Shown here: positions 29,674 through 30,025 of the stretch, one piece after another | Position numbering within the stretch: position 1 is the first letter of the stretch | Layout: each line of letters starts with the position of its first letter | DNA from: Pleurocapsa sp. PCC 7319 | GTDB lineage: Bacteria > Cyanobacteriota > Cyanobacteriia > Cyanobacteriales > Xenococcaceae | Assembly: GCF_000332195.1 (NCBI RefSeq) | Contig: NZ_KB235922.1 | Coordinates: 3,445,322 to 3,509,321 of the forward strand | Direction: 5' to 3' | Length of the DNA: 64,000 nt | Notes under the pieces: generated by a model | The model's input: only the letters and a program-made list of their open reading frames with translations | What the model was told of the DNA's origin: nothing | Database searches by the model: none | Made by a program: the position numbers and the translations under genes

Positions 29674-30025
29674 GGGGCTGTGGCTCAGTAGGATAGAGCA
29701 AGCGCCTCCTGAAAGTTCGGGCACTATGGGGGAAACCTCATCAGTGAATGTGGTCAAATTCAAGGAAGCCTAAAGTTACTAATAGTAGCCATGGTAATCT
29801 TGAGCCAAGCTCTATAGTTCCTGGTAGAGAAGGTGCAGAGACTGGTTGTAGGTCTAAAATCAGGAAAGTCACCGAATCGTAAATCTTGTTTGCAACAAGA
29901 TAGCCTACAACATAACGGCCACCGCCTAAAGGTAGCTTACCCAAGGTGAAGGAATAGTCCAGAGAGTGGGGAAACTCACACCAATCTGAAGCGCTAGGTC
30001 GCCAGTTCAAATCTGGCCAGTCCCG
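29674..30025 (+). tRNA. tRNA-Arg(CCU) interrupted by a group I intron
   Basis: Exon 1 is 29674-29710 and exon 2 is 29989-30025 (74 nt spliced). The acceptor stem is GGGGCTG / CAGTCCC with discriminator G at 30025 and no encoded CCA. The D arm is GCTC/GAGC, the anticodon stem AGCGC/GCGCT, the spliced loop CUCCUAA (U33, anticodon CCU, A37), and the T arm GCCAG-TTCAAAT-CTGGC. The split falls directly after the anticodon. All stems pair only if the intron is removed exactly at 29711-29988. Confidence 0.93.
29711..29988 (+). other. Group I self-splicing intron in the tRNA-Arg anticodon loop
   Basis: 278-nt intron without an ORF. P1 forms as CCUGA (exon CCU plus intron GA) with UCGGG, giving the obligatory U-G wobble at the 5' splice site; the intron ends in the omega G (29988). 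Conserved core blocks are visible in order: P (AATTCAAGGAAGCC), Q (GGTAATCTTGAGCCAAGC), R (GGTGCAGAGACTGG) and S (GGAATAGTCC). There are GAAA tetraloop hairpins at P2 (GGGG-GAAA-CCTC) and P9 (GTGGG-GAAA-CTCAC). The pattern matches subgroup IC3, like the cyanobacterial tRNA-Leu(UAA) intron. Confidence 0.92.

Follow-up and report, generated by a model that had tools for sequence, protein, structure and literature searches.

A 64-kb stretch of cyanobacterial DNA (the window, meaning the whole stretch analysed) almost certainly carries a group I intron (RF00028) in a tRNA-Arg(CCU) gene, at positions 29711-29988. The intron, 278 nt long and on the forward strand, is placed between U36 and A37 by ARAGORN with introns allowed. 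We are confident, short of certainty, in reading it as a ribozyme that is predicted to splice itself and is passed on mainly by vertical descent; its ancestor probably lost an open reading frame (ORF) for a LAGLIDADG protein, and its arm between P7 and P3 would have gained a contact with loop L6.

The RF00028 match (29698-29981; 62.8 bits against a gathering threshold of 50; E 1.5e-13) was the only one above gathering in an Rfam search of the 64-kb window. ARAGORN in its default mode reported no tRNA in the window and overlooked its sole tRNA gene; with introns allowed, it found a tRNA-Arg(cct) spanning 29674-30025, 278 nt of this being intron, whose joined exons form a standard cloverleaf. 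An earlier sequence-only reading had proposed a group I intron directly after the CCU anticodon, with boundaries at 29710/29711 and 29988/29989, a normal cloverleaf only upon removal of the 278 nt, a P1 with a U.G pair and a GGG guide sequence opposite CCU, core blocks, GAAA-capped P2 and P9, and a terminal G. The covariance model and the exact agreement of the ARAGORN boundaries bear this out, all the structural elements are present and the guide is correct; that reading described the core properly and overlooked the P7-P3 arm. The splice-site U.G, the terminal G and the P3/P4/P6/P7 core, hallmarks of group I introns, are all present. Taken alone, the fold energy of the intron departs only mildly from expectation (z -2.7), with 2 of 100 shuffles reaching an equally low value. 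The intron contains no intact endonuclease ORF of the kind that marks mobile introns, being overlapped only by an 89-aa antisense ORF, and the LAGLIDADG protein of its relatives has no match in its own genome (G000). Judging by the established chemistry of group I introns, exogenous guanosine bound in P7 would attack after U36, and the released 5' exon, still paired with the GGG guide, would attack after the terminal G, joining the tRNA.

Table 1. Features of the intron-split tRNA-Arg(CCU) gene (positions in the window)
Feature	Position	Strand	Evidence
5' exon of tRNA-Arg(CCU), last nt U36 of the anticodon	29674..29710	+	ARAGORN, introns allowed
Group I intron, 278 nt, final G	29711..29988	+	RF00028; ARAGORN boundaries; homologues in 32/40 relatives
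P1, CCUGA with UCGGG; splice-site wobble U29710.G29719	29708..29721	+	U.G invariant, 33/33
P2, GAAA loop	29722..29746	+	Two-sided changes in 8/10 pairs
P3, 5' strand; partner 29917-29922	29750..29755	+	100% of cells paired; double changes in 2/6 pairs
P4 (29759-29764 with 29799-29804) and P5	29759..29804	+	33-intron structure count
P6a and loop L6; UUCCUGG of L6 (29818-29824) predicted to pair with the J7/3 arm	29810..29829	+	P6a double changes in 3/5 pairs; L6 pairing tests
P7, 5' strand GACU; partner AGUC 29956-29959	29840..29843	+	Invariant, 33/33
71-nt arm, J7/3 (P7-P3 interval)	29844..29914	+	LAGLIDADG ORF there in 40 relatives; 2 nt in 13 introns of the state tree
P7.1-like helix, 5' strand GUUGUAGG; partner CCUACAAC 29904-29911	29845..29852	+	Two-sided changes in 7/8 pairs; 93.6% of cells paired
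UCAGGAA, predicted long-range pairing with L6 29818-29824	29860..29866	+	0/10000 permutations as low
P8	29923..29948	+	33-intron structure count
P9, GAAA loop	29966..29979	+	100% of cells paired
3' exon of tRNA-Arg(CCU), first nt A37	29989..30025	+	ARAGORN

The structure that we drew by hand is paired in 96.4% of cells in 33 related introns, compared to 30-41% when slid, and 31 of its pairs changed on both sides; none of 500 shuffles reached either value. The P1 U.G is identical in 33/33 introns, the four P7 pairs do not vary and the terminal G is invariant. The trees described below and the drawn structure (Azoarcus-type kin; short P5 without P5abc) suggest an IC3-like intron. The intron also has the P7.1 helix between P7 and P3 that characterizes subgroup IA; because relatives in the same clade lack this helix, we regard it as a resemblance to IA and not as membership.

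A search of 40 relatives, counting the own genome, gave a match in 38, and 32 have the intron, its presence in weaker hits having been checked; the others comprise three genomes with contiguous exons (G029, G033 and G036), three that matched in one exon only and two with no match. Family f1 was represented in this search by 26 genomes, own included, and every one of them has the intron. Across the order, 190 of 291 genomes matched a 3' probe and 151 were counted by hand as having the intron, with the 39 matching genomes of E over 1e-12 counted as exon only. At the level of the phylum, 64 of 194 genomes have an RF00028 match, and those among them in tRNA-Arg(CCU) lie in the window's order, the tRNA hosts being assigned by reading the exons (labels from trial splicing were noisy). 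A plasmid collection yielded no match. The intron is probably inherited mainly along with its host.

The 71-nt arm is missing from the simplest relatives, and Azoarcus-type introns have 2 nt at this place. Its UCAGGAA starts 16 nt downstream of AGACU and is complementary to UUCCUGG of L6, and relatives keep the pairing with other letters (GUCCCU/AGGGAC, CCCCG/CGGGG, GCUCC/GGAGC and UUGCUGU/ACAGCAA). Across 35 introns (a set without L017, L072 and L030, and with the L6 segment of L014 taken too long), cognate L6 and arm averaged -8.61 versus -6.39 kcal/mol, 0 of 10,000 permutations being as low; 18 representatives gave -8.92 versus -6.24 kcal/mol, also with 0 of 10,000. When L6 was set against arm positions 11-26, no permutation was as low for 31 introns (0/5000) or for 15 introns (0/5000). 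A P5-arm control gave no signal (2529/5000 as low in the full set and 1576/5000 in the representatives), L6 against the rest of the arm was slightly above chance in the full set (3/5000) but not in the representatives (352/5000), and a control on the last part of the arm, a segment that overlapped the pairing site, gave 0/5000. Exceptions are L116, with no stem, and L021, with 4 bp, neither of which reaches 5 bp; L028 and L101 are unconvincing, their long stem occurring only elsewhere or being made without G-C pairs. L6 pairing was not seen in ORF-bearing introns, both for all 40 (3621/5000 permutations as low) and for 23 of them (3716/5000).

These comparisons of related sequences provide good support for the predicted contact between L6 and the arm. 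The arm would fold as a P7.1-like helix and dock on L6 through a 7-bp long-range pairing, and this docking should, we infer, stabilize P6 together with the guanosine site. The conserved UAAAAUCAGGAA of the window arm might also be taken for what is left of the beginning of the ORF, but its partner in L6 explains it better. The sequence and its fold further show an extra hairpin in the arm, AUCUUGUU-UGC-AACAAGAU, at 29883-29901, which is not kept in all relatives.

At the same place in the arm, 40 of the 291 genomes of the order have a LAGLIDADG ORF, inside tRNA-Arg(CCU) introns of 832-969 nt. The ORF protein is matched in 59 of the 291 genomes at E 1e-3, the matches beyond the 40 being weaker and three of them lying in tRNA-Asn(GUU) introns. 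Two ORFs matched LAGLIDADG_2 (PF03161, E 1.4e-33 and 5.5e-33), and the protein is I-SceI-like, matching I-SceI chains at E 1.2e-4. In 37 full-length ORFs, the position of I-SceI D44 is occupied by Asp in 7 and by Glu in 3, and that of D145 by Asp in 3; both catalytic Asp are present in one only (L274), with at least one missing in 36/37, Asp at neither position in 28/37 and an acid at neither in 25/37. Among 206 columns ranked by variability, the D44 position comes first and the D145 position 29th, with the adjoining Gly and Asp invariant. The median dN/dS of 125 pairs of ORFs is 0.18, indicative of purifying selection, and that of 38 pairs whose two members have no acid at either position is 0.19. 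Broken copies number 3 of 40, and a stop falls inside the stretch matched in the order-wide protein search in 5 of the 37 full-length copies. Because the protein is conserved while its nuclease centre is lost, its sequence suggests a maturase-like function.

In five introns (L253-L255, L257 and L256), AGGAG or GGGAG just upstream of the ORF start, in the helix that holds the ORF, pairs with CUCCU at the other end, and translation of the ORF may be tied to intron folding in these cases. The LAGLIDADG ORFs in tRNA-Asn(GUU) (L291, L292 and L293) lie in 898-nt introns, and their second motif keeps DDG, the first being without Asp. L294 and L295 also encode LAGLIDADG proteins with kinship to that of the intron ORF, and both acidic motifs are kept in them (GDG and MDDG); no tRNA was found around these two genes.

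The order in which the ORF and the RNA arm appeared was read from a state tree of 95 introns, with tRNA-Ile introns as the root. Outermost in this tree are ten introns without an arm, followed by the armed clade (100/98), whose two basal branches each include ORF-bearing introns and in which RNA-arm introns are nested; the minimum is 8 changes among the three states (no arm, ORF and RNA arm) in 89 rows. The most likely source of the RNA arm is an ancestral intron whose arm helix carried a LAGLIDADG ORF; once this ORF had been lost, the remnant would have come to contact L6. The order from ORF to RNA arm is only favoured, because many branch supports are below 95, with inner supports mostly moderate, and because three armless introns and one ORF clade (f15) are placed inside, the ORF clade within the RNA-arm part. 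The position of the f15 introns could also be explained if the arm came first, that is, if an arm of RNA origin, neutral or purely structural and part of an ordinary intron, was later invaded by the ORF. Such invasion would be in line with the insertion of ORFs into introns in general, which often occurs in peripheral loops. However, in the armed clade each of the two basal branches is occupied by ORF-bearing lineages, the armless introns lying outside, and we consider the RNA-first order a possible but somewhat doubtful alternative.

Within the favoured order, ORF first, we further hypothesize a swap of protein for RNA in the arm. Under this scenario, which we put forward tentatively, an I-SceI-like gene settled in the P7-P3 helix and lost its nuclease site to become a maturase, and in several lineages, including that of the window, the protein was replaced by the arm-L6 contact. 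If true, one ribozyme would have exchanged a protein cofactor for RNA structure in nature, and more than once.

With regard to the origin of the intron, a tree of 124 introns groups the cyanobacterial Arg(CCU) introns with tRNA-Ile(CAU) introns, betaproteobacterial in the best tree, and with Rhodothermota Arg(UCU) introns (100/100), and a tree of 112 introns recovers the same grouping (98/99). In both trees, cyanobacterial tRNA-Leu introns form their own clade and proteobacterial Arg(CCU) introns are also apart. Without the P9 columns, the grouping with the Ile and Rhodothermota introns is absent from the best tree (p-AU 0.248 when forced). The 124-intron tree was obtained after dropping six odd anticodon labels, thinning out 31 of 47 Leu introns and drawing 14 of 54 Met(cat)-labelled loci at random; for the 112-intron tree, nine further loci (mostly long branches) and three tRNA-Thr introns were left out. 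The row of the window retained 18 nt of the arm in the 124-intron tree and none in the 112-intron tree. Loci labelled Met(cat) by ARAGORN we take, from knowledge of the literature, to be tRNA-Ile(CAU). The named loci (at least 119, with ARAGORN labels for 102 of the matches listed) came from a pattern demanding an armless Azoarcus-like core and from the matches listed for it, so that the sampling is biased on both counts.

Shared ancestry at the same site with proteobacterial tRNA-Arg(CCU) introns, which have the same tRNA and the same insertion point, is unlikely: a joint clade is compatible with the data without the P9 columns (p-AU 0.158) but is rejected with all columns (p-AU 0.008), in trees that covered proteobacterial introns other than the alphaproteobacterial tRNA-Arg ones. 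Introns in tRNA-Arg(CCU) of alphaproteobacteria were reportedly described by Paquin and colleagues in 1999. Less likely still is that the cyanobacterial tRNA-Leu intron recently moved into tRNA-Arg through an altered guide. The sequence-only reading had raised the question of transfer between tRNA sites on account of a close likeness of the core blocks to the tRNA-Leu intron; a special likeness was not supported, the best trees joining the Arg(CCU) introns with Ile(CAU) and Rhodothermota Arg(UCU) introns instead. Both Leu and Arg introns are IC3-like, and forcing them together gave p-AU 0.157 with all columns and 0.371 without P9; however, the best trees separate them with strong support, the P9 region of the Arg intron is short in the alignment, as in tRNA-Ile introns, and longer in the Leu form, and a jump would not be recent because the Arg intron occurs widely across the order. 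Of the two groups that the same reading had singled out for a phylogeny, neither is joined to the intron in the best trees; union with Leu is tolerated by the p-AU values above and union with the proteobacterial introns is rejected only with P9. Because the forced union with Leu is not rejected and the grouping with the Ile and Rhodothermota introns depends on the P9 columns, the proposed transfer between tRNA sites may have taken place, with a Leu source disfavoured by the best trees.

A search for an intron-free tRNA-Arg(CCU) in the own genome, also suggested from the sequence, found none by sequence query, anticodon-arm pattern and ARAGORN: a 350-nt query of exon and intron gave one match, and the pattern gave 11 matches, compared to 15 for a reversed-pattern control, with 0/11 identified as tRNA by ARAGORN. 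The genome has a tRNA-Arg(UCU) (L301), and such a tRNA might read AGG by wobble, so that tRNA-Arg(CCU) might be dispensable and its intron decayed and no longer splicing, but we consider this highly improbable given the core pairs maintained with double changes in 33 introns, the intact exons and the lack of any other CCU tRNA found in the genome.

The own genome contains a second group I intron, at L001 977-2273 (G000:C7 near 5137634), inside thyX and with an HNH_3 ORF; both exons around it match Thy1. As this is the only other RF00028 match, the search revealed no second tRNA intron in the genome. Elsewhere, three family f2 genomes have group I introns inserted after U33 of tRNA-Thr(UGU) (L070, L071 and L082). 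Further hosts of such introns, by ARAGORN label (among L159, L180, L183, L199, L220, L204, L168, L250 and others), are tRNA-Arg(UCU) in Rhodothermota, Bacteroidota and Vibrionaceae; other bacteria have them in tRNA-Leu(CAA) and tRNA-Lys.

That tRNA-Arg(CCU) can host a group I intron is known. As far as the excerpted text of one report goes, the cyanobacterial tRNA hosts known earlier were only tRNA-Leu and tRNA-fMet, and very short introns have been claimed in Arg(ACG), Gly and Lys tRNAs (PMC5733544). The open-access literature that we searched (subscription papers fell mostly outside its scope) contained no report of cyanobacterial tRNA-Arg(CCU) introns. The intron is common in the order, yet it is missed by a default tRNA search. 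One site thus exists in three natural states in related hosts, namely, without an arm, with a protein gene and with an RNA arm, which makes the old question of whether intron proteins and peripheral RNA domains substitute for each other directly testable in vitro.

Among known systems, the Azoarcus-type (IC3) introns of tRNA-Ile(CAU) resemble the window intron in their insertion just 3' of the anticodon, their core and their short P9, but lack the P7-P3 arm, having 2 nt there (as the search pattern itself demanded). The cyanobacterial tRNA-Leu(UAA) intron is likewise a group I intron in an anticodon loop in the same phylum; unlike the window intron, it is inserted after U34, has a longer P9 region and belongs to a separate clade. 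Some cyanobacterial tRNA-fMet introns carry an ORF, according to excerpts from PMC1995217; the one with I-Ssp6803I is also a cyanobacterial tRNA intron, but its ORF is of the PD-(D/E)XK type and its clade is separate. In the Twort intron, P7.1/P7.2 encircle the guanosine pocket, as excerpts from the same source state (PMC1995217). The P7.1/P7.2 extensions and P11 of subgroup IA involve an arm at the same place, whereas the window arm sits in an IC3-like intron; the L6-arm contact may be the same as P11. Finally, a group I intron in Thermotoga 23S rRNA encodes a LAGLIDADG protein with maturase-like activity, by the excerpted account in PMC3984707. What is shared with that system is that a bacterial group I intron encodes a LAGLIDADG protein; unlike there, the ORF proteins here are found in relatives of the window intron, are I-SceI-like, belong to a tRNA intron and have a maturase role that is only predicted.
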